From: a virus
Strand: one strand, 5' to 3'
Virus record (IMG/VR): IMGVR_UViG_3300017783_000192
Location: 1 to 25,008 of that record
Length of the DNA: 25,008 nt
Shown piece after piece: positions 4,184 through 24,853 of the stretch; within the stretch, counting starts at the first letter, position 1, and each line of letters begins with the position of its first letter. The notes under the pieces are model-generated. The model did not search any database. It was not told the DNA's origin and worked only from the letters and a program-made list of their open reading frames with translations. The position numbers and the translations under genes were made by a program.

Positions 4184-6589
4184 ATGACTAATTATCAATG
4201 GGTCGGTGCTTCTTCCACGCTCGCAAGCACAGCAGCGAATTGGAATCCAAGCGGAACGCCAGCCGCAGGTGATGTTATCATCTTTGACAATTTGGGACAG
4301 CAAAATTGTGTGTGGGATATAGTCTTGCCAGCCACAGCCTTTTCTGTTGATGAAATTATCCTTGAATCCTCTTTTGCACACACCCTTACTATGGGTGTCA
4401 ATATGAGAGTCAAGGGTTTGTTTCTCAATAAAACTATTGTTCCGAGTGCTGGAAATAAAATTATTTTTCAACACGGGGCATCCCCTAACTTTTTTGGTTC
4501 TTACAAAACATACAACGAACGATTTGTGTTAATTGGTGATAGCGGAAACGCCACAGGTATTACCTTTGAAATGACTGGTTTATCCACTCCTGTCACAAAG
4601 TTTGACGATGGCCCACATCCAATAGTGGTTATCGGGGGTGGTCAGTTTGCACCGGATTATGTCGCACCAACGGGAACAAGTGGTAAAGCCACCTTTGATT
4701 CCTTTACCATTTCCACATCAACAAATTTTTCACCCGATGGTGATTTAGTGGATAACGACAGGCTCAAAGTTTTTTCTTTTACTGCATTTTCTATTGCCAG
4801 CACGAGTATTGACTTCGGCCTTTCAACAACGGAATTTACCGCCACAACCAGTGGGTTTCATATTCCAACAGCAGGGGCAAGTAGTATGCCAACTGGATTC
4901 ATAGATGCTTATTACCGAAAAATTGTCTTAAATGCAAATACCGCAGGTGATAAAATTTTGATGAGCGATAACACCTATATTTCCGTTGAAGAATTTGAAA
5001 TTAACGATGGCGTAGTTTTGAAAGGACCGGTAGCCGCCGATGACCAAGGAGCCGATATTCGTTCAATGAAAACCCCAAAGGTAAGGGGAACATGGTCTTT
5101 TAGTCAAATCTCTCCGGGGATTTACCGAAGCCCACGAAACGCTTCGGGACCGATGCCCAAGGTTAATGGAAACTTTCACATTACGGGAAAATTAGATGTG
5201 GACGGATTGATTGACCCAACAGGACTTGAATTAAATCCACAATCCAGCAATCCCGGCGGCGTCACCGCAAACACGCTATGGTTGAACAGCACCGACAGCA
5301 ACAAGTTGTATCTCGGCTCAAGCGAAGTTAGCGGTAGCGGAGCGCAAGGACCGGCGGGACCACAAGGCCCACAAGGAGCAACGGGACCAGCCGGTGCTGA
5401 TGGAGCAGACGGCTCCGATGGTGCGGCAGGTGCAACCGGACCGACAGGGCCAGCAGGTCCAGCAGGTGCAGATGGAAATACGATTAACATTTCAGCCTTA
5501 ACTGCTAACACGGCAATTGCTGACGCAGACTTGCTTTTGCTTGACGATGGGGCAAACGGAACAAACCGCAAAATCACCTTTACCGAGGTCAAGGAGTGGA
5601 TTCGGGGTGAGGGTATCAAGGTTGGCCGAAATGGTGGCGTGAACCAACTTCGCATTCGTGATTCAAGGGACGATGGAGATGTTCCACCTGCTGATTTTCA
5701 AGATAAAGCCGTGTCGTTTGACTTCACCGACGACATAACAGGCTCCCCAACCTCTTGGGATTCTGTTATGACCATGAAAGGCTGGTCGGACAGTTATAGA
5801 GCATGGCAGATATTTTCCGACGCTTCAACCTCTTCTCGTAGTGTGGATGAAACGCCGTTGTTCTTCCGTAGCGGAGAGGGCGATGTTCAAGCGACATGGG
5901 GAGAAATCAAGGAAATTCTTACCTTCCCCGGAACAGCCCCACGCGTTGATGGCGCAACTAACCAAATCCTGCAAACGGACGGGGCTGGAACCCTTTCATG
6001 GGTGGACTTACCTGCTGGCGGAGGAACGCCATCGGGTGCGGCTGGCTCTATCCAATTTAGCGACGGCTCGGCTTTTGATTCGGACGATGCAAACCTGCAT
6101 TGGGATGATGCAAACAACCGTTTGGGTATCGGCACGAATACGCCCGGAAACACCATTCATGCTGTTGGCACAGGCAACTTCCCATTCCGATTTCAAGGAA
6201 ACGGGGGAAATCTCCGTATAAACAATTTTGGTCACCTTCAAATTCAAAACGATAACTCAACCCCAGTTGATGGGACGACAATTGACGCCCCACTATTTCA
6301 AATCGGACAGCGAGACGCAGGACAATTAGACATAGCATTTGGCAACTTAGCAGGCAACCACTTGGTTGCGGCTTCGGATTCTTTGCTTACGCTCAAGCGA
6401 GCCTCCAATAGCGCATCGGGAGCGAAGCAAATCGGCTTCTTAGGGGCTACGCCGGTAGCACAACAGAGCGTAGTGGACCCCGCAGCAGCAGGTTTCAATC
6501 CGGTTGGTGCAAGTGTCAACGAAGTAGCATTACAAACAAGCCTTGATTCAATTATAGCGGCATTACAGGCTCTTGGATTATTTGCATGA
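4184..6589 (+). CDS. Fibre/receptor-binding protein with collagen-like repeats
   Basis: 801 residues. Residues 1-60 (YQWVGASSTLASTAANWNPS, then GTPAAGDVIIFD) match the 'W.G....NW....P..GD.v.F' opening of beta-solenoid surface proteins, and residues 60-340 continue as beta-rich repeats. Residues 386-430 are 15 uninterrupted Gly-X-Y triplets, a trimerising collagen-like shaft. Residues 431-600 form another domain, and near 635-655 the segment HWDDANNRLGIGTNTPGN is the classic repeat of phage tail-fibre distal regions. The C-terminal AKQIGFLGATPVAQQS and short helix also recur in marine phage fibres. It probably binds the host surface as a trimer. GAGG at 4172-4175 lies 8 bases before ATG. The gene is unusual in lying among connector genes rather than after the tape measure. 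Confidence 0.75.
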   Translation: MTNYQWVGASSTLASTAANWNPSGTPAAGDVIIFDNLGQQNCVWDIVLPATAFSVDEIILESSFAHTLTMGVNMRVKGLFLNKTIVPSAGNKIIFQHGASPNFFGSYKTYNERFVLIGDSGNATGITFEMTGLSTPVTKFDDGPHPIVVIGGGQFAPDYVAPTGTSGKATFDSFTISTSTNFSPDGDLVDNDRLKVFSFTAFSIASTSIDFGLSTTEFTATTSGFHIPTAGASSMPTGFIDAYYRKIVLNANTAGDKILMSDNTYISVEEFEINDGVVLKGPVAADDQGADIRSMKTPKVRGTWSFSQISPGIYRSPRNASGPMPKVNGNFHITGKLDVDGLIDPTGLELNPQSSNPGGVTANTLWLNSTDSNKLYLGSSEVSGSGAQGPAGPQGPQGATGPAGADGADGSDGAAGATGPTGPAGPAGADGNTINISALTANTAIADADLLLLDDGANGTNRKITFTEVKEWIRGEGIKVGRNGGVNQLRIRDSRDDGDVPPADFQDKAVSFDFTDDITGSPTSWDSVMTMKGWSDSYRAWQIFSDASTSSRSVDETPLFFRSGEGDVQATWGEIKEILTFPGTAPRVDGATNQILQTDGAGTLSWVDLPAGGGTPSGAAGSIQFSDGSAFDSDDANLHWDDANNRLGIGTNTPGNTIHAVGTGNFPFRFQGNGGNLRINNFGHLQIQNDNSTPVDGTTIDAPLFQIGQRDAGQLDIAFGNLAGNHLVAASDSLLTLKRASNSASGAKQIGFLGATPVAQQSVVDPAAAGFNPVGASVNEVALQTSLDSIIAALQALGLFA
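5339..5473 (+). repeat. Collagen-like Gly-X-Y repeat (15 triplets)
   Basis: The in-frame stretch encodes triplets such as GPA, GPQ, GAD and GAT with glycine at every third position and no interruption. Codons for glycine vary (GGA, GGC, GGT, GGG), so the protein repeat is conserved while the DNA is not a simple tandem repeat. Collagen-like segments in phage fibres form a rigid trimeric shaft. Confidence 0.85.
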
Positions 6590-9487: not shown

Positions 9488-10471
9488 ATGAGCGGATTCA
9501 ACAACCGATATGTAGGGATTGTTAAAGAAACAACCTACGGAACAGACCCAACAAGCGGATATGTTTTTGGAGAAGTTGACGACGAGTCCATCAAACACAC
9601 TTACGAAGTGATGCAACGCACAGACATGAGCCGATACGGAACGGCCAAGTCCAACACGGGCAAGGAGTTTTCCGAAGGCGATATTAACATGGCTATGCTC
9701 GCTGACAACTTTTTGGGAACGGTTTTGACTGGACTTTTCCCAACCGACACGGTGACTGGCTCAAGCCCAACTTACAGCCACACTTTCACCGAAGCCGGAA
9801 CAGACCGCTCATTTACGATGCTTGTTGGTCGTGAAGAAAAAGAACACACCTACACGGGCATTGCTGTTGATAGCATGTCCGTGAGCGCAAACATCAACGA
9901 ATACGCTATGATTTCTGCTTCTTTTATGGGTAAAGCAGAAAGCGGACTTGCTACTATTGGTGCATCCAGTCCATCCTTCAACACCAACGACCCTCTTTAC
10001 TTCGCTGACGCAAAGGTTTTCTTCAATGGAGACGCTACCGCTTCTAACCTTGTGAAGTCCATCTCCTTTGACATCAACATGAACCGTGATGGAGACAACG
10101 CTTGTGGTCTTGGCGATGCAACCTACACCCGCCTTCCTCCGTTCCAACGCCGTGAAATTTCCGGAAGTATTGAGTTTAACAAGATTATTCACACCGCCGT
10201 TGAAAGTGAGCCGACATACGCTGAATTGACAGCCGCAGACGGTTTGGAATTAAGCGGAAGCGGCGTTGAATTGAAGGTTCAGTTTGGCGACGAAAGCACT
10301 GCTGATGTTGTCACCTTCAACTTTTACAAAATCCGCTTTGAGGCTCCCGATGCCAATGTGTCGGGTCGTGACACGCAGACCATGACTGTGCCGTTCATTG
10401 CTCTTTTCAGCCCCAACGACAGCAAGATGATGGATGTTGTTATGAAGAACGCTCAATCATCCGCTTATTGA
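9488..10471 (+). CDS. Major tail tube protein
   Basis: 327 residues. The N-terminus 'GIVKETTYGTDPTSGYVF' (residues 10-27) is the characteristic opening of phage tail tube proteins ('.g.eE.tyGt.p'), followed by long alternating strands (YSHTFTEAG, SFTMLVGREEK, VDSMSVSANINEYAMISASF) typical of tube beta-sandwiches that stack into the hollow tail. The block ISFDINMNRDGDNACGLGD with REISGSIEFN is also typical of the '44 kDa' tube family. It is longer than lambda gpV, so it may carry an extra surface domain in its second half. AAGGTGAT precedes ATG. Its position before the chaperone and tape measure genes is canonical. Confidence 0.75.
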   Translation: MSGFNNRYVGIVKETTYGTDPTSGYVFGEVDDESIKHTYEVMQRTDMSRYGTAKSNTGKEFSEGDINMAMLADNFLGTVLTGLFPTDTVTGSSPTYSHTFTEAGTDRSFTMLVGREEKEHTYTGIAVDSMSVSANINEYAMISASFMGKAESGLATIGASSPSFNTNDPLYFADAKVFFNGDATASNLVKSISFDINMNRDGDNACGLGDATYTRLPPFQRREISGSIEFNKIIHTAVESEPTYAELTAADGLELSGSGVELKVQFGDESTADVVTFNFYKIRFEAPDANVSGRDTQTMTVPFIALFSPNDSKMMDVVMKNAQSSAY

Positions 10472-10716: not shown

Positions 10717-11079
10717 ATGCCAGTATTGACAAAAGAGTTTGAATTAGACGACGGAACAAAAATCACCTGCCGACAAGCAGGTGGTATGACCAAACTACGG
10801 ATTGAAAACATCCAAGCGAAGGTTTTTCGCGAACACATACACTTTGGTTTAGACACATCCGAATGGACTGACGAACAACAGAAGCAGTTTGCTGACGCAT
10901 TGGAGCAAGAGGGAGCAGGTCTTGAATCTCAAATGCGTGAATGGATTCCTCGCTCAATCATTGAGCCAAAGGACTTTGATATTGACTCGTTGACCAGTGA
11001 AGAATTGCGGATGATTTTGGGCTTTGTTCGGGGAGATGACCCCGATGGTGCGCCCCCTTTGGACAATTCTTCCGAGTAG
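10717..11079 (+). CDS. Tail assembly chaperone, gpG-like (zero-frame product)
   Basis: 120 residues, acidic, starting with strands (TKEFELDDGTKITCRQAGG) and continuing as helices (KQFADALEQEGAGLESQM, SLTSEELRMILGFV). This is the layout of the short form of siphovirus tail assembly chaperones, which keep the tape measure protein soluble and recruit tube subunits. It lies exactly between the tube and tape measure genes. The last 8 codons overlap a second frame that continues past the stop, and the overlap contains a -1 slippery site (11055-11061). The AGAAGTGA-type site ahead of ATG is moderate. Confidence 0.7.
   Translation: MPVLTKEFELDDGTKITCRQAGGMTKLRIENIQAKVFREHIHFGLDTSEWTDEQQKQFADALEQEGAGLESQMREWIPRSIIEPKDFDIDSLTSEELRMILGFVRGDDPDGAPPLDNSSE
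11055..11061 (+). promoter_or_regulatory. Programmed -1 frameshift site CCCTTTG
   Basis: In the chaperone's zero frame the codons read CCT (11056-11058) then TTG (11059-11061), preceded by C at 11055. This is exactly the X XXY YYZ form required for tandem -1 slippage (CCC/TTT). The -1 frame is open from 11040 to 11360, so a ribosome slipping here bypasses the stop at 11077-11079. No stem-loop was examined computationally. Confidence 0.7.
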
Positions 11080-11360
11080 CACCAACGCTTTGTATGGCAT
11101 ACAAAGGGACGCTACCCTCGGATTTGTGGGATAGGTATGACTGCGAAGGCGGTCAAGAGCGCATGACGCTTGACCTGCTTGTGGCTATGGATATGAATGA
11201 CAAAATATCCGAAGCAACAAACAACGCCAAGAAAAAGTTTGACGGCAAAAGTATGGCATCCCGCTTAAAACAACGGAGACAACAACGCCAATTATTAAAC
11301 GACAACGAAACGGTGTCCTTGTTAGGCGGCTTAGGCTTGCCCATACAGCGTAGCAAATAG
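11061..11360 (+). CDS. Tail assembly chaperone extension, gpT-like, read by -1 frameshift
   Basis: After slippage at CCCTTTG the frame continues GQFFRVAPTLCMAYKG to 11360, adding about 100 residues to the gpG-like protein and giving a gpGT-like fusion of about 215 residues. The segment LCMAYKGTLPSDLWDRYD matches the 'la..y..lPSelw' start of gpT-like and related chaperone extensions, and this motif begins upstream of the only in-frame ATG (11094). That ATG has no ribosome-binding site (ACCAACGCTTTGT precedes it), so independent initiation is unlikely. The C-terminus is basic and Gln-rich (RLKQRRQQRQLL). In lambda the T domain binds the tube protein while G binds the tape measure. Confidence 0.7.
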   Translation, partial: GQFFRVAPTLCMAYKGTLPSDLWDRYDCEGGQERMTLDLLVAMDMNDKISEATNNAKKKFDGKSMASRLKQRRQQRQLLNDNETVSLLGGLGLPIQRSK

Positions 11361-11377: not shown

Positions 11378-14300
11378 TTGATAGAAGAGTTATTCCTATC
11401 CTTAATGCCCGTGGTGCTTCTTTTTGCCACAATGACGATGCTCGTTCTTCGGGCTGGTGCATCCCGTATTTTCTTTGATGTCGTCGGTTCTTTCCAAGCG
11501 ACACGATTGATTGGTGACGCACAAGCCAAAATCACTGTTCTTCAAGGTTTGGTTCTTGACGGTTTGTCGGGTATCACAGAAGGTGTTGGGCTAATAGGCG
11601 AACAAATAGGGATGCTTGTTGATAGCACCGTTCCCCTTGCTCAAGAGATTGGTTTTGCTCGCATTGAGTTTGAAAAATTCGTTGCATCGGGGGATGACGC
11701 AGACCTCCTTGCTGGACAAATTGAAAATCTTGGAACACAATTCGGATTCACTGCCGACCAAGCACTTGCCGCCGGTTCAAGGATGGCACAACTTTCTTCC
11801 GTCGTTGGTGGTGGGGCCGCTATTCCCGCCGCAACTCAAGTTGGTATCGCCTTCGGTATGGTCGGTGGTATGCAAACGGAAGAAGCAATGCGTAAGATGA
11901 TTTCGCTACAACAACAGACAGGATTTATGTTTGGAGAATTGACGGAAAAGCAATTCAACAGGTTGGAAGCCGAAGAAAAAGCCAACATAATTAGGGCGAA
12001 CAGCATCAAGTTGTTGAATCAACTAAACACAGTTGAAAATCGTTCTTCTGCTACGATGTCTCAAATTACTTTCGTAATGAACCAGTTTGCTTCGTCGGCT
12101 CGGTTGGCTGGCGACGAAATTACTTTTATGGCAGCAGCATCAGCCACACTGATTGAAGCCGGTGAAGAACAAGGTAAGGCTGGTCGTGCGCTCAAAATGA
12201 TGTATGCTCGGCTTGGTGCTGACACAGGAAACAACACCAAAATTTTACAAAAATACGGAATAGCCACAAAAGATTCCAACGACCAACTTCGGTCAATGGA
12301 AGAAATTATAGGTGATGTTTCGTCAGCAATATCAAAACTGGCTGTTGAGCAACAAGCATCAGCCAAAATGGAAATTGCACAGGCAATCGCTGGAAACGAC
12401 CACTATGTTCGTGCTATCAAGTTGATAGAAGGGTATAATCGCTCTGTTCAACTTCAAACAATGGCTGTTCAAGAGTTAGACACAGCACAAACCGAATTGA
12501 ATAAGCGATTTGAGGACAACGCTTTCCTTTTACAACAAGCACAATCACGACTAACTGACGCAAAAGCGTTGGTTGGTGGTATGTTCACACCAGCCGTAAT
12601 TCGTGCCACAAACGCACAGGCATCGTTAAACGAAGAGTTTGCTGCTATGGGGCAAGAGGCAGGATTGGATGGTTCTTTCATAAGGATGCTTTCGGGTGTT
12701 ATTGTTAATGCACAACAGATGGGACAGATTTTTGCTCCTATGATTGAAGCCAATCTTAACATGATGAGCCTCACGGTTTCCCTCCAAACACAACTGCAAA
12801 TCCAGCGTGCCATCGGAGGACAATCGCTTGTGAACGCAAGTGCTTATGGACGACAGGGTGAAATGGTTCGTGCCAACTTAGGCTCAATACAAGCGACGGC
12901 TGCAATAGAGAACAGAAGGGCAATGTTAGCCGTATCTCAACTACGGATGGATAAAACTGCTACGGACGCACGACAGCGTGCAATGCAACTATCACAAGGC
13001 GAAGTGACAAACAATCAACAAGCCCTATTTACTCAACGACAATCGTTGGAAAGGGGCCTCGCTACATTACAAAACAAAAAGAACCAACTGGAAATTCAAG
13101 GAGTATTAAACAGAAAGGAACAGGATTCCCTTTTTACCGAGGACAGACACCTTCAAATTTTATTGAGAAAAAAAACCATTACACAAAACAATTTACAATT
13201 GATGACACGAGAACAGGCTTATATCGCTGCGGCAGGTAAGTTGGCTGAAAAAGAAGGAATGACGGCACAGCGTTTGATGAATTACAAAAGCACACACTTT
13301 ATTCACGCTAAGGCCGAAAAAATACTAAATGAATCTAACCTTGAAAACCTACAAATACGGTCTGTATTGGAGCAGCAAATTTTAAACATTGAGCAAAGAA
13401 GAGGTGCGCTTAACATACCTTTTACGCAAATAGAAAAAACACAGATGGAAAACAAAAAAACACAATTGAAATTAGTCAATCAACAACTTTCACAAGAAGG
13501 GGAGCGTGTTATTTTCTCTTTGATGAACGCACAAGCGATTGGAGGCGAAACAGAAGCCGCAAAAATCCTACGCAACGCTCACATTGAATTGATTGGTATT
13601 ACAAGACAAAAATCTTCCGCAGAGGTCCAAAACAACCTAATTATGGAGCAAGCCGAGAAAGCCGCACGAGAATTGGCTGTGGCGTATGGTCTTGACGAAG
13701 CGGCTCTTAGAAAGTTGATACCTTCTTTAAAAGTTTTCCAACAGGCATTGAACGGCGTTGAAGAACAAAGCAAATTGACAGTGGATGCGGCAATGGCAAC
13801 TCAAATGGCATTTATGAAAGTCTCCGGTGCGCTTGGTGGAGCAAGCATGATGATGTCAATGTTTTCGGAAAACGAGGATGCAGCAAGGGCTTCCATGATG
13901 CTAATGACGCTTTCAATGGTCCCCATGACCTTTCAAATGTTCACTGCTACAAGTGCATCTATGGCCTTAGTCGGTAGCATGGCAAAAACTGAGGTCCAAG
14001 CCCAAAAAACTTCTATTGCCCTAAAAGGTGTTGCGCTTTCTGCTGGAAAAGTTGCTTTGGCACTTGGCGGAGTCCTTTTGATTGGTGTCGCTTTCATGGC
14101 TTTGTCGCGTGCCACGAGAAATGCAAAAGATGATACCGATGATTTAGCGGCTGGATTTGACAATCTTAACAAAACAGTATCATTCAACAAAGAAATGTAT
14201 TCCGATATTGCTAATAGCCTTACCGATAAAAGTATTCTTGACATTGTTCAAGAGGTCAATGACACTGAAAATCAAATTAAAGAAATTAAAGATAGTCTAA

Positions 14301-15073
14301 AAAACAGCACCAATCCGATTATCATTGACCAACTCAACCAAGAATTGACTCTGCTTGAAGAACAACTTTCCATTCAACAAGACATTGCTGCCGAACGGCA
14401 ATCTTCTGCTCTGTTGGATGACTCTTCGGCTGCAAACGCATTTTTCGGTAATGTAAAAGCATTACAGGATGCTGAAAAAGAGTATCAAGACGCTGAAAAA
14501 AGGTCACCCCTCTTGTTTGGTAAATTCCCAACTGGGGCGGCTGGAAGAACAGCAGAAGATTTCTTTGGTGTGAATTTGCTTGCCGGTGCGCCAATGGCGT
14601 TTTATGACAGAGATGAAGAAGCCGCACTTTCAGCCTACAATGATGCGTTGGAAAAAATACCCGAAAACATGCACGGTGCTATCTTAGAGGCAGCAAAAGC
14701 AAGCACAACTATTGACGAATTCAACAACAGATTGAGTGCTATGGCAGAAGAAGAAAGTTTTGATAATCCTTTTGGCAACTTTGGAAGCGGCATAGAGGAA
14801 AACTTCATTGGTCCGATTGAGGCCGCAAAGGAAGCCGCCTTTGAGTTTAGCAACGCTCGTGAAGAAATGTTCTTCGGTATGAGTAAAGGTAATATTACAG
14901 GAGACATGGTGAAGCAAGTAGTGAACAAAGGCGTGGAAACGCTTATCAACACTACCGAAGTTATTATGACCAACAATTTCAACGGTATGACCACGGGTCA
15001 AGCAGCAAATGAAATCACAAAGCAAGTTATAGAACAGTTAAACGGTTTGGGACTTAACATCCAATCGTCGTAG
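11378..15073 (+). CDS. Tail tape measure protein
   Basis: 1231 residues from TTG at 11378, with GAGAGAGG (11363-11370) 7 bases upstream. It is the long, helix-rich, Gln/Ala/Met-rich protein that follows the chaperone pair. Residues 110-330 resemble the TP901-type tape measure core (FGFTADQALAAGSRMAQLSS, EEAMRKMISLQQQTG, ATLIEAGEEQGKAGRALKMM). Residues 500-800 are long coiled coils. Hydrophobic segments occur at 5-23 (LFLSLMPVVLLFATMTMLVL) and about 885-910 (GKVALALGGVLLIGVAFMAL), as expected of a protein that inserts into the host membrane during DNA delivery. At about 0.15 nm per residue the tail would be roughly 185 nm. No lysozyme or peptidase motif was noticed, which fits an archaeal host without murein. 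Confidence 0.85.
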   Translation: MIEELFLSLMPVVLLFATMTMLVLRAGASRIFFDVVGSFQATRLIGDAQAKITVLQGLVLDGLSGITEGVGLIGEQIGMLVDSTVPLAQEIGFARIEFEKFVASGDDADLLAGQIENLGTQFGFTADQALAAGSRMAQLSSVVGGGAAIPAATQVGIAFGMVGGMQTEEAMRKMISLQQQTGFMFGELTEKQFNRLEAEEKANIIRANSIKLLNQLNTVENRSSATMSQITFVMNQFASSARLAGDEITFMAAASATLIEAGEEQGKAGRALKMMYARLGADTGNNTKILQKYGIATKDSNDQLRSMEEIIGDVSSAISKLAVEQQASAKMEIAQAIAGNDHYVRAIKLIEGYNRSVQLQTMAVQELDTAQTELNKRFEDNAFLLQQAQSRLTDAKALVGGMFTPAVIRATNAQASLNEEFAAMGQEAGLDGSFIRMLSGVIVNAQQMGQIFAPMIEANLNMMSLTVSLQTQLQIQRAIGGQSLVNASAYGRQGEMVRANLGSIQATAAIENRRAMLAVSQLRMDKTATDARQRAMQLSQGEVTNNQQALFTQRQSLERGLATLQNKKNQLEIQGVLNRKEQDSLFTEDRHLQILLRKKTITQNNLQLMTREQAYIAAAGKLAEKEGMTAQRLMNYKSTHFIHAKAEKILNESNLENLQIRSVLEQQILNIEQRRGALNIPFTQIEKTQMENKKTQLKLVNQQLSQEGERVIFSLMNAQAIGGETEAAKILRNAHIELIGITRQKSSAEVQNNLIMEQAEKAARELAVAYGLDEAALRKLIPSLKVFQQALNGVEEQSKLTVDAAMATQMAFMKVSGALGGASMMMSMFSENEDAARASMMLMTLSMVPMTFQMFTATSASMALVGSMAKTEVQAQKTSIALKGVALSAGKVALALGGVLLIGVAFMALSRATRNAKDDTDDLAAGFDNLNKTVSFNKEMYSDIANSLTDKSILDIVQEVNDTENQIKEIKDSLKNSTNPIIIDQLNQELTLLEEQLSIQQDIAAERQSSALLDDSSAANAFFGNVKALQDAEKEYQDAEKRSPLLFGKFPTGAAGRTAEDFFGVNLLAGAPMAFYDRDEEAALSAYNDALEKIPENMHGAILEAAKASTTIDEFNNRLSAMAEEESFDNPFGNFGSGIEENFIGPIEAAKEAAFEFSNAREEMFFGMSKGNITGDMVKQVVNKGVETLINTTEVIMTNNFNGMTTGQAANEITKQVIEQLNGLGLNIQSS

Positions 15074-15088
15074 TGAGAAGTGAAAGAA

Positions 15089-18000
15089 ATGACGAGAACA
15101 GGCACAAGCAAATATGGATTTTGGCTCGCTGGCTACTACGAGGATTGGCTTGGTTCTCGCGTGATTGCAGACGACGCTAACGCTCCTTCCACAGATGGAG
15201 CATACAACTCAACTGATACACACCACGGAAACACCCTTAATGGCGAAGCACCTTTGAATCCCCGCTATCGTTGGGCCGTCAACGACCGTGATTCAACGGC
15301 TTCTGCGGCGAGCAGATTTTCAACCGATGCTGATTTTTCTTTGAGCAATGATGGTGTTGCTCGTTGGGCAACCTTTGATAAAATTCGTTTGGGCAAAGGA
15401 AGTTATTGGGCTGGTCGTTCACAGATTCAATACCCGAACACAAATGTCAATGGGAACAGAATCCGTTTTGGCAAAACAGGCGTTGCTTCAACCGCAGATG
15501 CTTACATGCTTATTAGCGGTTCTTCCGACTCTTCTATTCAATACTACATCCCCACTGGCGACACCGACCCCACAAATGGTCGGCAGACTCGCTACGAATG
15601 GAGTGGTCGCAATTGGTTCAAAGGACAAGCGGGACAATCATCGGGAGTCGCACCCGACTTTATGCAACATGGTCATTTGACGGGTGTGTGGATGGGCGAG
15701 CGAATTCAAATGGGTGCTTATGACGGCACAACAGGAAACGCAACCACACACGAAAACACACCCGAAGCAATTTTTATTCCGATAAAATCACCCTCAAAAA
15801 AGCCTTTTTTGGCTGTTACAACTTACATGAAAGACGACTCGGCCAATCAATTAGACAATCAAACACCAAGCGGTCAATTCCGACCTGTAGTCGCTTCGCC
15901 ATCCAACCTTAACAGTAAGGCTGATGGGGACTACTTCACAATTCGTATGAGCGTTCAAGCCATGATGGGTTCTGCCGCAGGTGTAGTCAATGAAAACGCT
16001 CCATCAGCAGGACAGGCTCAATACACCCTTAAAATTGGTTTTCCGGTAAATACATCTTGGGGAACAACGGGTAGTGGCGGTGGGGTATCTGCCATTGATT
16101 GGACAATCAAACCACACGACGGAACAGGATTGAGTGCAATCATCAGTCAATATCACGCATTGTATCTTGCCGGAATCAAGGTTGGAAACGAAACGGACGA
16201 TGTTTGGTTTGACTTGGACTTCAAGTTAGATTACACCAATAATAAATTTAAGGTTTATCACGACGGGACAGAAGTGACGGCAACCAACCCCACGGCTGGC
16301 TCTTACTCTTCGGGATATACCATGGCTAACAACACACAGACTTCTGCGGCTTTCCTTCCATCGGAAATGACAGGATGGGAGTTGTTCGTGAAGGGTGTTT
16401 CTGCAACCTACAACAACATGGTCGTCGCCACGCTCATTGACCGCGTGGCTCTTTATCGTCCTCTCACTGACATACCCGATGGAACGCTACTTCCCGCTCC
16501 TGTCAACTCGTGGACTTGCACTATGCCCGTGAACGGAGTGAGTCAAGCAAGCATCACGATTTTTGACGACGATACCGAACAGAACCTTACGCCTTGGTTC
16601 ACTAACGACGACATAACCGATTGGCGGTTGCTCATGTTTAGCAGTAACATTGACCGTCCTCTGTGGTCGGGAATTATTGAAACAGTCAATGTCGCACAAT
16701 CGGCAAGTGAAAGGACACGACAAATTCAAATTACCGCTCGCGATTCTCTTTCCTTGCTTGACCGACAAATATCCACTTGGGAGATTGGTCAAATAGGTCT
16801 TGGAGAAAGCGACCAAGTGCTTTCACGACAAGGTGAAGTTGATTTGTTGTCCGAATCAATGTTTATGGGTGCGGCCCGTCTTAGAGAATCACAAAACACT
16901 ATTGGGTATGAATCGGCTACTTCTTATAAAGAATTGACCAACCAGCGAACACAACTCAACACGGCTCACCCAATTCAAATGTATAACAACGAGGATTCGG
17001 CAGGTCCGAACAGTGTTGAGAACGAATGGTTGGGCTACAAAATTAAGGGCATCAACAAAACATCGGGTGGATTGACCCAAGTTATTCTCGCCCACGGTTC
17101 AACAGGCTACACAACCAGCGACACACCCGACATTTACGGAACGGTCAACCACAACGCCAACGGTAAAACAATTACATCCATTGACTCATCACCGTTTGGT
17201 GTTTCGGGGACGCAGGGTTTGGAATACGCCTCTTCTGCAATCGCTTATGTCCCAAACGCTACGGGTGGTTCGGGTGTCCTTGAGGGCGACAGAAGCACCT
17301 TCCCATCCACTGGTGCTGAGTCCGGCTTCAATATTTTACAATTTAGCGTCCATCCAGCCAAGAGCGACGGAACCTTGCTCAAGGTTGGTGACATCATTAC
17401 TGTATCGGAAAACGGCAACAGTGGGACAGACCCACCTGCCGGATTTTACACTGTCATGGCTACCATTACCGATGGTGGAAAGTTTTATGTCAAAACTGAT
17501 AAGACGAGTGGTAGCGCACCTGTCATCACGGGTCGCTCGGTGGACTACACCTTTGAAGAAGGGTTTGTTTCAACCGATGACAATTCTCAACTGTTGTATC
17601 GTGACCAACATGCCGTTTGGATGCGAGACTTACCCAAGTCGGCTTGGTTCAAAAAACACTTTGGGGTTTATGGCTTCTCTTTTGTGGATGCTGGAACAGC
17701 ACAAGCGGCATTCACAGCAAACTCCGATGTCATTCAAGTTTCGTCCTCTTTCATTGATTCGTCCGAGACTCATGGGGTGGGTCAAGTCATCAATTCCGAT
17801 GGGTTCATTGACACCTTTACCTACAACGGCCACATAAGCCCTGCTGACGACGGCAATTACTACCTTGTAGGGGTCAAGGGTCTATCTATTGACCACGAGG
17901 CAGGAGAGTCGGTTTATACGCTTTCCACGAGCAACGACTACAAGCATGTATGGTTGCATTGGGCGGATATGCGAAACGACGCAGATGCGGATGCTGACGG

Positions 18001-21000
18001 TGGGTATCGTAAGAAAACTTTTGGGCTAATGAAACCAGTCAAAGAAAACTACGAAGTATCTATTTCTTTTACAGACCAATTCAAAGAAGATGGCTCGTAT
18101 GACGCATTCACCGACTTGAAAGTTGGGGATGACTTAGATTTGTGGGAATTGGATTCGTCAGTGGACCCAACAACTAACGCTCCTTGGTCAACACCACTCG
18201 GAACAGGCAACACACTACAACTCACTAACGGATATTCGGGAAACGCCATCAACAACGCAAGTGGAGGAATCAAATTCAAGTTATTGGCTTCCGATAGCGG
18301 CGTTTCCGATTTGGCAGTTGGGGATAAAGTGATTATCTTCAACTCGGACAACTACGACGGCATCCACACGATTTCGGGAATCACCGGAACGAGCCTAAAA
18401 GAAATCACTTGCTCAACATCTGCTTTTACGGCAAATGAAACCTACACTGCCACAGGACCATTTGTCCGCAAAGCCGAGGGAGGACACCGAGAATCGGTGC
18501 TGCGTGATTGGGAGAACAAGGGAGGGTCGTTTTTGGTTTATGATTGTTCAAAATTCTTTAACCTCAATACTTTTATCAACGGAGGAACCTACGGACAGCG
18601 AAGTGGAGGAACACGGAATGTTGGCGACTACGAAACGGAGTTTCACGGATTCCCTGTGCTGATGGACAACTACTGGTTAGAGTCAACCAGCACTAACGAC
18701 AACAACGCAGCACCATATGGCTTTCACGAAAACTTCCGAAAGTGGATTGGTGCATCCGGTGAGTTGAACCGGAGCATCAATGCTGGCGATACCGTGATTG
18801 AAACCAAACCATCTTCGTCGTTGATTTCTTCCTTCCCCGAAAACGGTTTTGGTAAAATCAAAGCAAGTCGTGGGGTCAACTCACAGAACCCATCATTTGA
18901 GATTTTTTGGTATGTTTATGATGGAAAGTTAGATGCGTCCGTTGTTGAGAGCGCAACCTCGGCTACGGCATCCACGGCAAGCCCATTTATCATCACATGT
19001 AGCGGCGGCGACTTCGTGAACGATGGTGTTGAGGTCGGTATGAGGGTGCGAAATGTGACGGCAAAATGGGTTGCTCAAATCACAGCCGTGACTGCTACGG
19101 CTATAACAATTGACACCTCAACGATTTTTGCCGAGACTGGAAGCACACGACAGGATGTCGCAATCAGCGACAGCATCAGCATACCACAACAACTTTACGG
19201 TATTTACCTTGAATCCGACGCTGGAACCAACCGAAGTGCAGAAAACGCAGAAGCATACCTTGAAGGTGTGTTGATGGACGATGTTCTCAAGAGCAACGGA
19301 AGCACAGCCAACCTCGCTATCAACGCCGCAGGTTCAGCAGGAACAACAGGAGCATTTGATGAAGTTATTATTGTGGGAAGTGTAAGTCCCCGATACGCAC
19401 TGCGATTCTTGATGAGGGTTGATGGTCATGTAGTATCACCCAACCTTGGAACATATTGGTTGAGCGACAAGGCTCGCTTCCTGTGGTCGCTGAATCTTTC
19501 AAAGACTTGGCTTGCTCAGTCCTCTATCTCGTGCTGGTTTGACCATGGTTCAATCCCAATGACGAACAACCAAACCACTGACGGCACAGATGCCAACTTT
19601 GACTCCTTCGGTGCTGCATATGACGCACGGGGAGGCAAATCTCTGTTTTCCATCCTACGAGAGTCGGTGGAGGCTACTGGATTCGGATATGAAAACAGTA
19701 TTCGGTTGCCAATCACATATCAAATGGGGCGCGATAACAAGTTGGAGATTCGCCCAACCTACAATCTTGGTGAAGCCGTGAATCGCGACATCCTCACCGT
19801 CTCTTCAATGAATGCACAGATGTCGGGACAAATCACCAATGTCCGTGTGTATTACAACAACGGTTCATCATTTGCTGATTTCCCTGCCCCGACCCTCAAC
19901 CAAACATATCGTTGGAAAATTGTTGAGGTTCCCGAAATCACCTTTGACGAAGAAGCACAGGCCGTGGCAAAAGAAGAATACTTCAAGGCTAAAACCAAAG
20001 CAATCAAGGTCAAGGGAGAGGTGATGAGAGATTTGACCCACGACGACAAAATGTTGGACAAGGGGCGATACGGCTACATCGCAGACCCGACACGACACGG
20101 CGAGCGTGGTGTCACACAACATGCCGTTCTCGGCCCCGCTTACGCCCCCGTTATTTCCTCATTGAATTGGGATTGGGCAGGACAACAGGGAACGCTGGCG
20201 AGCGGCATGTGCAACGCCTTAGACGGCAACCTTGGACGACAGAACGGAAGCGACAGGTTTTACCGTGATAGGTTTGGCAAAGGCTACACAGCGATAGCGA
20301 ACACAGCCGCAGATGCGACTAACACCTACGATAAACACTTTTGGTGGTGGGGCGCACACAGCGTAAGTCATGCTGTTCAAGTGGTGCATATTCCAAGCGG
20401 TTGTCCTGCCAACGGTGATACATCAAATAACGAGTTGCGGGTTTGGGTTGCCCTAAAAGATAATCAGTCCGGCACAGATATTGAAAACGCTGAATTTACG
20501 ATTGGTTTGACAGACCCAACTTTTTCCACTACATTATCGTCTTTCACCAATCACACGGGTGGTCCAAGCACATATTCCCCAACACTTGCCGGTGCGTCAT
20601 CGTCGTTTGCTACTGTCAATGTTAAGAGAAACGGATTTTATGAGATTGACATACCCTCAACCTATTGGGCTGACAAACCTTCGGGTGCAAAAATTACTTT
20701 ATCGGTAAATGTGGACTACCTCAAATCACTACTCTATCACCGATGTGGTGACCCAACGGCTTCGGGAATCCTACACAACGCTCACAACATAACAGAAATG
20801 GGTCCAAGCGCATGGGCGGCAACCAACGCCGATTCAATATTCCCAATCGGACCACGAAAATACGACAAAATGTCGGGATTGATGGGGGCGAGAAATTCTT
20901 GGTATTGTCCACGGTTGCATATCGTGGAAGATGTGAGATGGCGACCGGCGACTACGGTGACCTTCACCGATAGCGGACTTGGCCTTGCGGCTGAACCTAT

Positions 21001-21949
21001 GGTCATCACCGACATCCAATGGCGAGTTGACGGTCGCAATGTGGAAAATGTATCTCTAATTCTTGAGCGTGACCAAACCAAGGACAAAGGTGGCTTGGGA
21101 GCATACCTGTTCCCGTCTGTCTCCCGTGGTCGTGGGCAACAATCTTCAAGTGGTCAAGTTGGAGGGGGCACTTCTCGTGAAAAACCTCGCCGCAACAGAC
21201 CTCCTGTTGGGCAACCTATCGGACCAATTGGAACATCACAAGTTGACACACAGCAAATCCTTGAAGGTGGTAAGGGTCAAGACATCCAAGATGCGTTCTT
21301 GAAGAATCTAACCAGCAATCAAATCACTTCCGCACTTTATGGCAACACGAAGGGTCGTATGGACTTCCTTGAAAATGGGGTCTCCGACTCTTCTTTTGGC
21401 ATTCTTGGGCAGAAGCGTAGTCCACCCCCGATGAACACACAACGAGCCGTTGACGGCATCGGAAACAACATGCAAGCGACATCATCCACAACATTGACTT
21501 CCGATGAAGGAATGGTTTTCACGGGAATTGTAAATCCCGAATCCGCAAACAGGTTCACACAGACCCACACTATGAGCGTCAAAGTCCCCGACGATGTGTC
21601 CGACGAAATCCTCACGGTGGGCGGCTTTTACTCGCTCGGTGGGAATGGGACAACCAAGGCAGTTTTGACTATTGAAGCGTCGTGCGTGGAAACAGGAGCC
21701 AGCAACACACGGACCATGACTCTAAGCGGCAACAAAGAAAAGCAATCGTTCCCAATGCTGACTGCGAGCCTAAGTGGAGCATCAACTGTTGGAAACACAA
21801 TTAAAATTACGATGAAAAGAACACCAGCAACAGGCGACGACGACGCAAACTTCTCTTCGCTCGTGGTTCACAATGTATCGGTCAACTTCCAACGGTTTAG
21901 TCTCAAAGGGTTTAGCAACTCGTCTTTGGGCTTCACGCCTTATCAGTGA
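15089..21949 (+). CDS. Giant tail hub/adhesin protein
   Basis: 2286 residues from ATG at 15089, chosen because GAGAAGTGA (15075-15083) lies 5 bases upstream; an in-frame GTG at 15080 is within that site. Residues 310-455 resemble a LamG-type lectin (VWFDLDFKLDY, KFKVYHDG). Residues 470-570 look like a tail hub: a strand block, then PLWSGIIETV and ARDSLSLLDRQIS. The hub pattern resumes near 1515-1600 (KSLFSILRESVEATGFGY, LEIRP, ITNVRVYYN) and at 1960-1995. Between lie about 900 residues of repeated beta modules (LAVGDKVIIF, VEVGMRVRNVT), an insertion likely exposed as the adhesin. A Pro/Arg-rich linker near 2031-2050 leads to a C-terminal beta domain. Position after the tape measure matches a distal tail hub. 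Host binding is inferred. Confidence 0.7.
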   Translation: MTRTGTSKYGFWLAGYYEDWLGSRVIADDANAPSTDGAYNSTDTHHGNTLNGEAPLNPRYRWAVNDRDSTASAASRFSTDADFSLSNDGVARWATFDKIRLGKGSYWAGRSQIQYPNTNVNGNRIRFGKTGVASTADAYMLISGSSDSSIQYYIPTGDTDPTNGRQTRYEWSGRNWFKGQAGQSSGVAPDFMQHGHLTGVWMGERIQMGAYDGTTGNATTHENTPEAIFIPIKSPSKKPFLAVTTYMKDDSANQLDNQTPSGQFRPVVASPSNLNSKADGDYFTIRMSVQAMMGSAAGVVNENAPSAGQAQYTLKIGFPVNTSWGTTGSGGGVSAIDWTIKPHDGTGLSAIISQYHALYLAGIKVGNETDDVWFDLDFKLDYTNNKFKVYHDGTEVTATNPTAGSYSSGYTMANNTQTSAAFLPSEMTGWELFVKGVSATYNNMVVATLIDRVALYRPLTDIPDGTLLPAPVNSWTCTMPVNGVSQASITIFDDDTEQNLTPWFTNDDITDWRLLMFSSNIDRPLWSGIIETVNVAQSASERTRQIQITARDSLSLLDRQISTWEIGQIGLGESDQVLSRQGEVDLLSESMFMGAARLRESQNTIGYESATSYKELTNQRTQLNTAHPIQMYNNEDSAGPNSVENEWLGYKIKGINKTSGGLTQVILAHGSTGYTTSDTPDIYGTVNHNANGKTITSIDSSPFGVSGTQGLEYASSAIAYVPNATGGSGVLEGDRSTFPSTGAESGFNILQFSVHPAKSDGTLLKVGDIITVSENGNSGTDPPAGFYTVMATITDGGKFYVKTDKTSGSAPVITGRSVDYTFEEGFVSTDDNSQLLYRDQHAVWMRDLPKSAWFKKHFGVYGFSFVDAGTAQAAFTANSDVIQVSSSFIDSSETHGVGQVINSDGFIDTFTYNGHISPADDGNYYLVGVKGLSIDHEAGESVYTLSTSNDYKHVWLHWADMRNDADADADGGYRKKTFGLMKPVKENYEVSISFTDQFKEDGSYDAFTDLKVGDDLDLWELDSSVDPTTNAPWSTPLGTGNTLQLTNGYSGNAINNASGGIKFKLLASDSGVSDLAVGDKVIIFNSDNYDGIHTISGITGTSLKEITCSTSAFTANETYTATGPFVRKAEGGHRESVLRDWENKGGSFLVYDCSKFFNLNTFINGGTYGQRSGGTRNVGDYETEFHGFPVLMDNYWLESTSTNDNNAAPYGFHENFRKWIGASGELNRSINAGDTVIETKPSSSLISSFPENGFGKIKASRGVNSQNPSFEIFWYVYDGKLDASVVESATSATASTASPFIITCSGGDFVNDGVEVGMRVRNVTAKWVAQITAVTATAITIDTSTIFAETGSTRQDVAISDSISIPQQLYGIYLESDAGTNRSAENAEAYLEGVLMDDVLKSNGSTANLAINAAGSAGTTGAFDEVIIVGSVSPRYALRFLMRVDGHVVSPNLGTYWLSDKARFLWSLNLSKTWLAQSSISCWFDHGSIPMTNNQTTDGTDANFDSFGAAYDARGGKSLFSILRESVEATGFGYENSIRLPITYQMGRDNKLEIRPTYNLGEAVNRDILTVSSMNAQMSGQITNVRVYYNNGSSFADFPAPTLNQTYRWKIVEVPEITFDEEAQAVAKEEYFKAKTKAIKVKGEVMRDLTHDDKMLDKGRYGYIADPTRHGERGVTQHAVLGPAYAPVISSLNWDWAGQQGTLASGMCNALDGNLGRQNGSDRFYRDRFGKGYTAIANTAADATNTYDKHFWWWGAHSVSHAVQVVHIPSGCPANGDTSNNELRVWVALKDNQSGTDIENAEFTIGLTDPTFSTTLSSFTNHTGGPSTYSPTLAGASSSFATVNVKRNGFYEIDIPSTYWADKPSGAKITLSVNVDYLKSLLYHRCGDPTASGILHNAHNITEMGPSAWAATNADSIFPIGPRKYDKMSGLMGARNSWYCPRLHIVEDVRWRPATTVTFTDSGLGLAAEPMVITDIQWRVDGRNVENVSLILERDQTKDKGGLGAYLFPSVSRGRGQQSSSGQVGGGTSREKPRRNRPPVGQPIGPIGTSQVDTQQILEGGKGQDIQDAFLKNLTSNQITSALYGNTKGRMDFLENGVSDSSFGILGQKRSPPPMNTQRAVDGIGNNMQATSSTTLTSDEGMVFTGIVNPESANRFTQTHTMSVKVPDDVSDEILTVGGFYSLGGNGTTKAVLTIEASCVETGASNTRTMTLSGNKEKQSFPMLTASLSGASTVGNTIKITMKRTPATGDDDANFSSLVVHNVSVNFQRFSLKGFSNSSLGFTPYQ

Positions 21950-22652
21950 AGTTTTTGCGTAAAGACAATACCCGCTTGGCCTGTTTGTGGGTGATACCAC
22001 TTACTTTTGTCATTTCTTTTTGTCGGGTTTTCTTCTGCAAGAGAACGCTGATTGAGCCATAGTGTTCAAGCAGAGCGACGGACTGTTCTCGTGAGATGCC
22101 GCACCCCATCAATGCTTTTATCCTATCATCAGTCTCTTCAAGAACAACCTGTTCCGGCTTGTGTGCCTTCGGTGGTTTTACTTTTGCGATAAGAGTTTGA
22201 CGATGATTCATGTAAAGCCATTCCACGAAGTCGTCCATCGTCGTCAGTTGGAGGAAGTGCAACTTGGGAAAGCGTTGGTGCATCGTCAACTTGAACGAAT
22301 GGATGACAGCCGCCATCTTGCGTCGTTCTTCGGATGTCTCACGGGCCGAAGGCCTTCGTCCGTGGAACCAAGGCTTCAACTCTGTGTTATAGACCACGAG
22401 GAACGGCTTCTCAAACGATTCGCATAGGTCGGTGAGTTGGGCGACAATTGTTCGTGAGCGTCCGATGCCGAGGATGGAGCGATAAAGGTCGTTGATTTCT
22501 TTTGCCTCTATTCCCCAATCACCAAGCACATAATCCCCGCTCGTCATCTGCAAGGTTCGGGCGTGTCCTCTTTCGTCCTTATCTGCATCTCCCAACTTGA
22601 CGAGCAATTTGTGAATCAGTTTTGGGTTTTCACGATGGTCTATGAGAAGCAT
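21933..22652 (-). CDS. XPF/ERCC4-type structure-specific nuclease with helix-hairpin-helix tail
   Basis: 239 residues. The N-terminal half has the ERCC4 nuclease landmarks in order: D5-H-R7-E8, SGDYVL at 38-43, the catalytic E49-A-K51-x3-D55 in place of the usual ERKx3D, and RSRTIVAQLTDL at 65-76. Residues 178-235 form a (HhH)2 DNA-binding domain (GCGISREQSVALLEHYGS, VSGITHKQAKRVL). There is no helicase, so the layout equals the short archaeal XPF form. Such enzymes, normally dimers, cut 3' flaps and fork or branched DNA, useful for resolving viral replication intermediates. The Arg-to-Ala change in the signature is odd; the acidic residues and lysine are kept, so activity is possible. It ends the minus-strand cluster and overlaps the hub gene's 3' end by 17 bases. 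Confidence 0.8.
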   Translation of the reverse strand: MLLIDHRENPKLIHKLLVKLGDADKDERGHARTLQMTSGDYVLGDWGIEAKEINDLYRSILGIGRSRTIVAQLTDLCESFEKPFLVVYNTELKPWFHGRRPSARETSEERRKMAAVIHSFKLTMHQRFPKLHFLQLTTMDDFVEWLYMNHRQTLIAKVKPPKAHKPEQVVLEETDDRIKALMGCGISREQSVALLEHYGSISVLLQKKTRQKEMTKVSGITHKQAKRVLSLRKNFTDKA

Positions 22653-22957: not shown

Positions 22958-23983
22958 TCAATCACCTATCGTTCCATCATAACGCCAGCATTTGCCTTCG
23001 CACATCCCACGCAGGTTGAACCATCGGCAAGAAGGAGCGTTAGCGTAGCCGATGTTGGTTCGTATTCCCTGTCGGCTTCGGTATTCATTCCAGTTATCCC
23101 AATTAAGACTTTTAAGATAAGAAAAGATTGTTTCCTCAATCTCATTCCGTTGCTCTTGGCTTAGGCTCGTCGGGTCTGCAAACCATCGCAACTCTTGGCT
23201 CATGTGTTGAACCAAAGCCACACGGACTTCGTGTGTTGGGCTTGATGCGTTGACAGCCTTCTCCAAACAGGGCATGAGGGGGACATCACCAGCCGAACCT
23301 ACATCGCCCGTGAATGGTTGCATCTCAACCTTCGGGGGTGGATTGTTGTTGACCCACATAACGATGTCAAAGGTGCTTTCGTTTGGTCGCCCAAAGAACG
23401 GACAGTGTTCTTTGTAGTCTGTCACGGGACGAGATGGGATTTTGAAATCATCAAGGAAAAGAGCATTCGGTGGGATGACGACAGCCCATCGTTTGCGTGT
23501 GACATTGTATGTGTTCGGCAAGCGGGTCAGTTTTGCAGGAAAAGCAAAACCGTCCAATGTAGCAAGCCCTTCGCTCATTCTTCTTTGGTATCGCTGTAAA
23601 TGAGAATTAAAATCTCTTCCCACAACTGGTCGTGAAAATAACTGATGAACATGAAATCCGCGACCCGTGGCAACAACTCTGCAATCTCCATCAAGACGGG
23701 TGAGTAATTCACGAACATCGCTCTTGACCTGTTCAATGTTTCCTCGTTCACCAGCGTCAAAGTCCCACCATGCACGGTCAATTATCGCCGTCGTCGTATC
23801 AACCTTCCACGGCTTTGTTCGCTCCACATCTTGGAACGAATAAAGGGATGTGTAAAGATTACTTTTGCCGTTAAGTTTTCCGATGTATGTTCGGAGTTGT
23901 TGTCGGCTCTTGCACAAAGAACGCTTGAGTCCCATCTCACGGGGGAAGGGGAGAAGGTTTGTTTCAAAGCCATTCATTTTCAC
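22958..23983 (-). CDS. Fused archaeal-type DNA primase (PriS-like catalytic plus PriL-like four-cysteine domain)
   Basis: 341 residues from GTG at 23983. The longer frame starts at 24046, but GGAGGTG (23991-23997) sits 7 bases before this GTG, and the overlap with the methyltransferase then falls to 20 bases. Residues 1-190 are an archaeo-eukaryotic primase core: metal-binding D74-F-D76, GRGFHVH at 107-113 (the sGRGyH nucleotide-binding motif), and KLTRLPNTYN at 151-160. Residues 230-341 resemble the C-terminal iron-sulfur domain of PriL: Cys239 in LMPCLEKAV, then Cys319, Cys328 and Cys332. PriS and PriL are usually separate; fusions are known from archaeal plasmids such as pTN2. It would make primers, or extend them as a primase-polymerase, for viral DNA replication. 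Confidence 0.8.
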   Translation of the reverse strand: MKMNGFETNLLPFPREMGLKRSLCKSRQQLRTYIGKLNGKSNLYTSLYSFQDVERTKPWKVDTTTAIIDRAWWDFDAGERGNIEQVKSDVRELLTRLDGDCRVVATGRGFHVHQLFSRPVVGRDFNSHLQRYQRRMSEGLATLDGFAFPAKLTRLPNTYNVTRKRWAVVIPPNALFLDDFKIPSRPVTDYKEHCPFFGRPNESTFDIVMWVNNNPPPKVEMQPFTGDVGSAGDVPLMPCLEKAVNASSPTHEVRVALVQHMSQELRWFADPTSLSQEQRNEIEETIFSYLKSLNWDNWNEYRSRQGIRTNIGYANAPSCRWFNLRGMCEGKCWRYDGTIGD

Positions 23984-24728
23984 TTTGAGCCACCTCCGAA
24001 TTGATTCTGTTTTCAGCCATTCTGCAATAGTCCTCGCTATTGTCAATCAAAATGTAGTCCCATCCGTTCTTAATAGCCGAAACACCCACCGTTCCCGAAC
24101 CGCCGAAAGGGTCAAGAACGACACTACCTTCACATGAAAGCAAAATGTTGTCCACCAAGCCCACAGGAAAAGGTGCAGGGTGAGGGTTGTTGGTTTCTTG
24201 ATGTATTCTCCAAACATCACCGATTTTGTTTGCTCCCTTCTTTAATTTGAAAGAGTTTTTTCCCTTTGGTGTCTTTGGCATCAAATAAACGACTTCGTAT
24301 GTAGGAACGAAATAACCGGCATTGAAATTGAAACCACCCGACCTTGCCCAAATAATCATCTGTCTCACATTAAAACCTTCAAGGAACGGGTGTCCTTCCA
24401 TTAAGCCCCCCTGCACACGAAATTTGTGGTTGAAAAACAACGCACCTTCGGGCTTCAAAACACGAAAGATTTCCGATAAAACCTTGTTCATCCAATTGAT
24501 GTAGTCCTCTCGGTTCATAGAATCGTTATGTTTTGCGTAGCCTTCACGCAAACCTTTGTCAGCGGAAGTCCACTTGCTACCCCTTCCATCCTTCATGCCG
24601 TTTCCGGTTGAAGTCTTGAGGTTGTAAGGGGGACTTGTCACCACGATGTCTACGGACTCGTCCGGCAGTCCAGCGAGTCTGTCCAACACATCGCCGCACA
24701 AAATCTCATTTCTCAGTCCAGCGTCCAT
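23964..24728 (-). CDS. DNA methyltransferase, beta-class N6-adenine or N4-cytosine
   Basis: 254 residues from ATG at 24728; a GTG at 24749 would add 7 residues but overlaps the zinc-ribbon gene more. Catalytic motif IV, TSPPYN, is at 31-36 and the AdoMet-binding motif I, LDPFGGSGTVGVSA, is near 205-218, the IV-before-I order of beta-class enzymes. NPHPAPFPVGLVDN at about 181-194 is the family's usual lead-in. TSPPY is compatible with either N6-adenine or N4-cytosine methylation, so the base is not settled. No restriction endonuclease is adjacent, which suggests an orphan enzyme that marks viral DNA to avoid host restriction or to regulate replication. It overlaps genes on both sides. Confidence 0.85.
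   Translation of the reverse strand: MDAGLRNEILCGDVLDRLAGLPDESVDIVVTSPPYNLKTSTGNGMKDGRGSKWTSADKGLREGYAKHNDSMNREDYINWMNKVLSEIFRVLKPEGALFFNHKFRVQGGLMEGHPFLEGFNVRQMIIWARSGGFNFNAGYFVPTYEVVYLMPKTPKGKNSFKLKKGANKIGDVWRIHQETNNPHPAPFPVGLVDNILLSCEGSVVLDPFGGSGTVGVSAIKNGWDYILIDNSEDYCRMAENRINSEVAQSENEWL
23991..23997 (-). promoter_or_regulatory. Ribosome-binding site deciding the primase start
   Basis: On the minus strand this reads GGAGGTG, the strongest match to the 16S tail in the replication cluster. It is 7 bases before GTG at 23983 and lies inside the methyltransferase coding sequence. Confidence 0.65.
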
Positions 24729-24853
24729 CGGTGTCCACAATCCTTGCACTCGGCTACATCCAGTTGTTTTGGGGGCTTACCTTGTTGACCTGCTACGAAC
24801 CACATAACTTCAACTTGCATATTTTTGCTACTACACTTCTCGCATTCCTTCAT
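24713..24853 (-). CDS. Zinc-ribbon small protein, 46 residues
   Basis: ATG follows GGTGA by 6 bases and overlaps the upstream stop as ATGA. The product has two Cys pairs, CEKC (4-7) and CKDCGH (36-41), with a 28-residue spacer of short strands (NMQVEVMWFV), the arrangement of a TFIIB/TFIIS-type zinc ribbon. HRW after the second knuckle is a frequent ribbon ending. Its 3' end overlaps the methyltransferase start by 16 bases, so the two are probably translated together. A nucleic-acid or protein-binding accessory role is likely; the partner is unknown. Confidence 0.6.
   Translation of the reverse strand: MKECEKCSSKNMQVEVMWFVAGQQGKPPKQLDVAECKDCGHRWTLD

Follow-up and report, generated by a model that had tools for sequence, protein, structure and literature searches.

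A conserved in-phase C_CCU_UU[G/A/U] site points to -1 frameshifting in the tail assembly chaperone genes of marine, probably archaeal viruses

The window analysed here, the entire IMG/VR record IMGVR_UViG_3300017783_000192 (25,008 bases), carries two small overlapping frames (10717-11360) sandwiched between the genes for the tail tube and the tape measure protein, and these frames very probably encode a gpG/gpGT pair of tail assembly chaperones of the lambda type, produced by -1 frameshifting. At the level of sequence, the comparison with relatives establishes the relation of the two frames, the slip site and coding in the -1 frame ahead of the first in-frame ATG; we further infer slippage itself, its efficiency and the tandem movement of the tRNAs. 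In the proposed mechanism, the majority of ribosomes would translate gpG through to the TAG at 11077. In a minority, tRNA-Pro on CCU in the P site and tRNA-Leu on UUG in the A site would both move back by one base onto CCC UUU (11055-11060), and reading would continue with GGA CAA TTC onward to 11360. The predicted product, join(10717..11061,11061..11360) with the junction GAPPL-GQFFRV, is a gpGT fusion of 214 residues, and gpG and gpGT would together cover the tape measure protein and bring in subunits of the tail tube. Such a frameshifted pair had been put forward in a preliminary description of this DNA, and it is supported by the -1 relation, the conservation of the heptamer and the gene order tube, pair, tape measure.

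Table 1. Features of the putative chaperone locus and its neighbouring genes (window coordinates)
Feature	Position	Strand	Basis
Tail tube protein, preceding the pair	9488..10471	+	PF18906 Phage_tube_2, E 5.8e-23; phrog_290, E 2.4e-26
gpG-like tail assembly chaperone (zero frame), putative	10717..11079	+	120 aa ORF
Candidate slippery heptamer C_CCT_TTG (CCCTTTG)	11055..11061	+	Phase checked; conserved in relatives
gpT-like region, -1 frame after the predicted slip	11061..11360	+	Constant heptamer-KG spacing, third-position excess, predicted helix
In-frame ATG of the gpT frame, unlikely to be the main start	11094..11096	+	SD-like core absent; ATG missing in some relatives
Tape measure protein (start codon uncertain), following the pair	11378..15073	+	PF10145, E 5.4e-17; phrog_5448, phrog_28

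The gpG frame ends with a TAG at 11077-11079, and the second, gpT-like frame, which lies in -1 relative to gpG, is open from 11040 to 11360, giving an overlap of 40 bases. The zero-frame codons CCC (11053-11055), CCT (11056-11058) and TTG (11059-11061) place CCCTTTG in the exact X XXY YYZ phase, which confirms the overlap, coordinates and phase given in the preliminary description. Counted without regard to phase, CCCTTTG shows no enrichment within the window (5 observed, 4.4 expected), and XXXYYYN occurs in phase at 31 of 6919 codon positions of the main ORFs. Since the chance of meeting an in-phase heptamer inside an overlap of this length is about 5%, the window on its own is suggestive only.

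Elsewhere in the window, a head-module protein upstream of the MCP (17-1447) shows a weak match to DUF5824 (PF19141) in its middle part and may represent a protease/scaffold gene carrying a domain insertion. An 801-aa protein with collagen-like repeats (4184-6589; PF01391) is encoded between the head genes and the tail module, and a 2289-aa protein with a GTG start and no PHROG match (15080-21949) is probably a tail-tip or fibre protein. The minus strand encodes an ERCC4+HhH nuclease (Hef/XPF-like; 21933-22652) and an N6/N4 DNA methylase (23964-24749).

To extend the view beyond one record, viral contigs were scanned with gpG, gpT and alignments of both, reaching identities down to about 50%; gpG homologues that are 53-100% identical occur in about 40 contigs. 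Both genes were present at 301 loci, counting the window and allowing several loci per contig, and these comprise 106 distinct junctions. The second frame lies in -1 in all 106, with none fused and none in +1, and 94 of them carry CCCTTT[G/A/T] in phase (62 TTG, 18 TTA, 14 TTT), so the heptamer and frame that the preliminary description proposed to follow across homologues are largely retained. The distance from the heptamer to a conserved Lys-Gly (KG) codon pair of gpT is 48 nt at all 81 loci measured, and the gpG stop varies in position from +7 to +34 relative to the heptamer. Superposing the -1-frame stops and the gpG stops of all loci leaves room for a shift only from -9 to +7 relative to the heptamer. 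The heptamer directly abuts the gpG stop at 16 loci. These include a clade with C_CCT_TT[A/G]_TAG (our loci L180-L182, L194, L207, L208, part of L264-L275, and L292), in which the abutting stop codon itself could affect slippage.

Selection on the site acts on the nucleotides. Among the 80 TTG/TTA loci, heptamer bases 1-6 show no Fitch change, as against 14-16 changes at the neighbouring upstream third codon positions. Base 1, the third base of its codon, is always C at these loci while the encoded residue varies between I, V, P, L and T; elsewhere in these genes, only 7-22% of the codons for these residues have C as their last base. Because base 1 stays C across different amino acids, the constraint is at the nucleotide and not at the protein level, and the conservation of the heptamer in relatives makes a chance origin untenable. 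A Shine-Dalgarno-like (SD-like) upstream stimulator was considered and rejected, as the third bases at -12, -9, -6 and -3 are freely variable. The same pattern bears on transcriptional slippage, by which a fraction of the mRNAs would have an altered base count at the C5T3 run. The window does have five C before TTT; most relatives have merely three C and three T, runs that are to our knowledge too short for known transcriptional slippage, and what is conserved is the two-codon XXXYYYZ pattern and not the run length. We therefore regard this explanation as extremely unlikely.

Alternatively, gpT could be made independently, by initiation or by termination-reinitiation at the ATG at 11094, with the heptamer being incidental. 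This is the first in-frame ATG of the gpT frame and lies 14 nt past the gpG stop, within reach of reinitiation, and an ATG between heptamer and KG motif is shared by 78 of 90 relatives. In the other 12 it is missing, and in 8 not even an ATG, GTG or TTG is found in this interval. The distance between gpG stop and ATG is also not conserved, because the stop ranges as described above, and the heptamer is invariant amid variable surroundings. The preliminary description had noted that the ATG has no ribosome-binding site, and this extends to the relatives, since none of the 69 having the ATG shows an SD-like core upstream of it; as such a core precedes gpG starts in only 15 of 86 cases, its absence is weak evidence when taken alone. 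More telling is the stretch from the gpG stop to the ATG (+25 to +38), where changes fall on codon positions 1, 2 and 3 of the -1 frame in a ratio of 28/14/114. This third-position excess implies that the -1 frame is translated, and conserved as protein, ahead of the ATG. In line with this, the first predicted gpT helix spans residues 2-15 of the frame, ahead of the ATG, so initiation at 11094 would delete most of it. Taken together, an independent start of gpT appears very unlikely.

The remaining 12 of the 106 junctions are without CCC at the P site, and all twelve have TTT at the A site. Eleven of these loci fall into one clade (for example L261:2246-2315 and L259:2501-2570) and have [A/G/T] CCT TTT or [A/G] CAT TTT in place of the heptamer. 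A deviating P site is found at none of the 80 TTG/TTA loci (Fisher p 4e-9, uncorrected for kinship). Across the 26 TTT loci, base 1 changed ten times, which is about the rate of the neighbouring synonymous sites, and U_UUU is unchanged throughout. From their sequences, the eleven loci look like cases of a relaxed rather than an absent signal. Taken strictly, they are what the preliminary description had named as evidence against frameshifting, namely relatives in which both frames persist although the heptamer is not intact; however, the loci form one derived clade, and in each of them U_UUU, which would let a single tRNA re-pair perfectly after a slip, has stayed in place, so that they modify the frameshift reading and do not refute it. 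The CCTTTT of this clade appears, going by our reading of the motif name, to match the 'twofour' motif of PRFect, whose authors deduced it from frameshifts annotated in phages (PMC10885494). A further locus (L126, 2833-2882) reads C AAT TTT TTG, so that T_TTT_TTG is available one codon downstream, and an 8-bp hairpin begins about 6 nt beyond it.

Within the TTT clade, a stem starts 5 nt past the heptamer, and RNAalifold rates it better than column shuffles (z about -4). By named-pair count 90% of its cells are paired, and its covariation score was reached by 0 of 500 shuffles and by none of the slid controls. In 9 of 24 sequences one G-C pair is replaced by A-U; on the tree this amounts to some five joint changes, which 41 of 7750 column pairs also reach. 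The pair links a base of the gpG stop codon with the third base of a Phe codon. The folding energies in this clade are unremarkable. We consider the hairpin plausible, not proven. A tentative and rather doubtful reading is that the signal of the UUU clade has been remodelled under selection, such that P-site re-pairing became dispensable, a single tRNA-Phe slips on U_UUU and a new hairpin 5 nt downstream contributes. If true, these viruses would provide a natural series in which the archaeal ribosome trades the contributions of A site, P site and RNA structure in -1 frameshifting.

For the window clade, by contrast, the stem-loop that the preliminary description had suggested looking for downstream of the site did not emerge. 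Single-sequence folding downstream of the window site gives z-scores of -0.8 to -1.9, RNAalifold on alignments of 35 or 38 relatives yields no structure, and the z-scores of individual loci equal the background. A downstream stem-loop as a general stimulator is therefore rejected, with no conserved one in the window clade; these analyses cover stem-loops, not pseudoknots. Pairing of the heptamer with a CAAAGG about 41 nt downstream was likewise discarded, as it is due to the invariant Lys-Gly codons and would be melted by a ribosome on the site.

Neither gpG nor gpT has a family match in Pfam, PHROGs or PDB sequences. Tail assembly chaperones are typically encoded between the tail tube and tape measure genes, and it is from this gene order together with a weak fold similarity that we infer the chaperone function. 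In a Foldseek search of the PDB, the AlphaFold2 model of gpG (pLDDT 89) matches best, although weakly (E 0.17), to 2ob9, the tail assembly chaperone of HK97, and VIA-align ranks 3klu (YqbN) first and 2ob9 third, again with weak scores (Z 4.9 and 4.6). Against viral models (BFVD), several annotated tail assembly chaperones are among the top matches. Taken together, these weak matches agree with the genomic position. Given the missing family match and the weakness of the fold similarity, the frames might be linked by frameshifting and nevertheless encode some other tail-module factor instead of a tape-measure chaperone. This is unlikely, as the pair lies directly between the tail tube and tape measure genes, its size fits, HK97 chaperone and YqbN are both in the top three PDB matches and tail assembly chaperones rank high in BFVD.

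With regard to the host, we examined 20 related records for replication genes, mostly 60-74 kb long and possibly fragments in part. All 20 encode a family B polymerase (PolB), 10 a GroEL-type chaperonin and 13 an ERCC4 nuclease, which is also present in the window as ERCC4+HhH. Compared with 50,697 phage records, the PolB of one relative matches best to the haloarchaeal viruses HCTV-5 and HVTV-1 (Druskaviridae; E 1e-36), and among 14 control genomes ERCC4 occurs only in the 4 archaea. Because of these two observations, marine archaea are the likely hosts, as judged from gene content; the archaeal host that the preliminary description held to be probable is thus likely, but not proven. Neither PCNA_N nor DNA_primase_S (PriS-type primase) was found in any of the 20 records, and MCM matches are marginal in 4. 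A profile of 18 MCPs did not match the single HVTV-1 MCP sequence, and the phage collection contains no named-virus homologues of gpG, the MCP, the 22958-24046 protein or the ERCC4 protein. Searching gpG and MCP in host genome contigs yielded no copy in a provirus, bin or species genome. One group I, GroEL-like chaperonin (L225:1441-3030) shares about 40% identity with the GroEL proteins found in bacterial and phage records. In the 69,020-bp record IMGVR_UViG_3300020417_001379 (L326/L327), the MCP gene is divided between both contig ends, which indicates a circularly permuted, near-complete genome and hence a size of about 69 kb for the virus group.

The Magrovirales / Aoguangviridae are marine archaeal viruses whose profile labels include a TAC gene, with frameshifting unmentioned (PMC10768690), and which encode an ERCC4 nuclease (PMC10160649). 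The viruses described here resemble them in being marine and in having PolB and the ERCC4 nuclease; half of the larger relatives compared here also encode GroEL. Compared by description, Magrovirales have 90-110 kb and encode PolB, sliding clamp, clamp loader, primase and MCM, in contrast to the contigs of about 60-74 kb here. Our literature search found no paper naming both Magrovirales and frameshift.

As of a 2021 review, fucA1 of Saccharolobus was the only demonstrated case of archaeal -1 frameshifting (PMC8211752), and the frameshift sites of archaeal viruses are so far sequence predictions from few genomes. In the marine and probably archaeal viruses compared here, a conserved C_CCU_UU[G/A/U] site emerges from more than 100 distinct sequences; the slip is localised to about 16 nt, and bases under selection are distinguished from those free of it. 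In addition, the series of junctions supplies a small panel of reporters with which -1 frameshifting by archaeal ribosomes can be measured. For annotation, gpGT in these genomes will escape automatic gene callers.

Lambda uses the slippery site GGGAAAG. Its tail assembly chaperones gpG and gpGT are the reference case for -1 frameshifting (reviewed in PMC5009743), whereas the window pair has CCCTTTG and no sequence-level family match, and its fusion is predicted from sequence. In the HF1-group haloviruses, the chaperone pair is likewise located between tube and tape measure, but the predicted frameshift appears to be +1, with no conventional slippery site (PMC7230728), in contrast to -1 here. 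For the archaeal siphovirus Hardycor1, a -1 slippery site G_GGA_AAT is predicted in the chaperone pair HrrHc1_110/115 (PMC7911831); it differs in its haloarchaeal host, and the prediction is based on one or two genomes and not on a comparison of many relatives. For HVTV-1 and HCTV-1/2/5, -1 frameshifting of the tail chaperones has been reported or predicted as well (PMC8211752, PMC5009743). Hence, the novelty is lower than the preliminary description had suggested, gpG/gpGT frameshifting having already been reported or predicted in these viruses and in Hardycor1. The profiles of our gpG and gpT show no similarity to gpG and gpT of HVTV-1 (Druskaviridae; KC117377). Nevertheless, this archaeal tailed virus shares the gene order, a tail assembly chaperone annotated as a -1 join and, close to where gpG ends, a heptamer in phase, which is GGGAAAG there and CCCTTTG here. 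Our data therefore document a known mechanism newly and well in another virus group, and the new detail is the clade with the decayed site.
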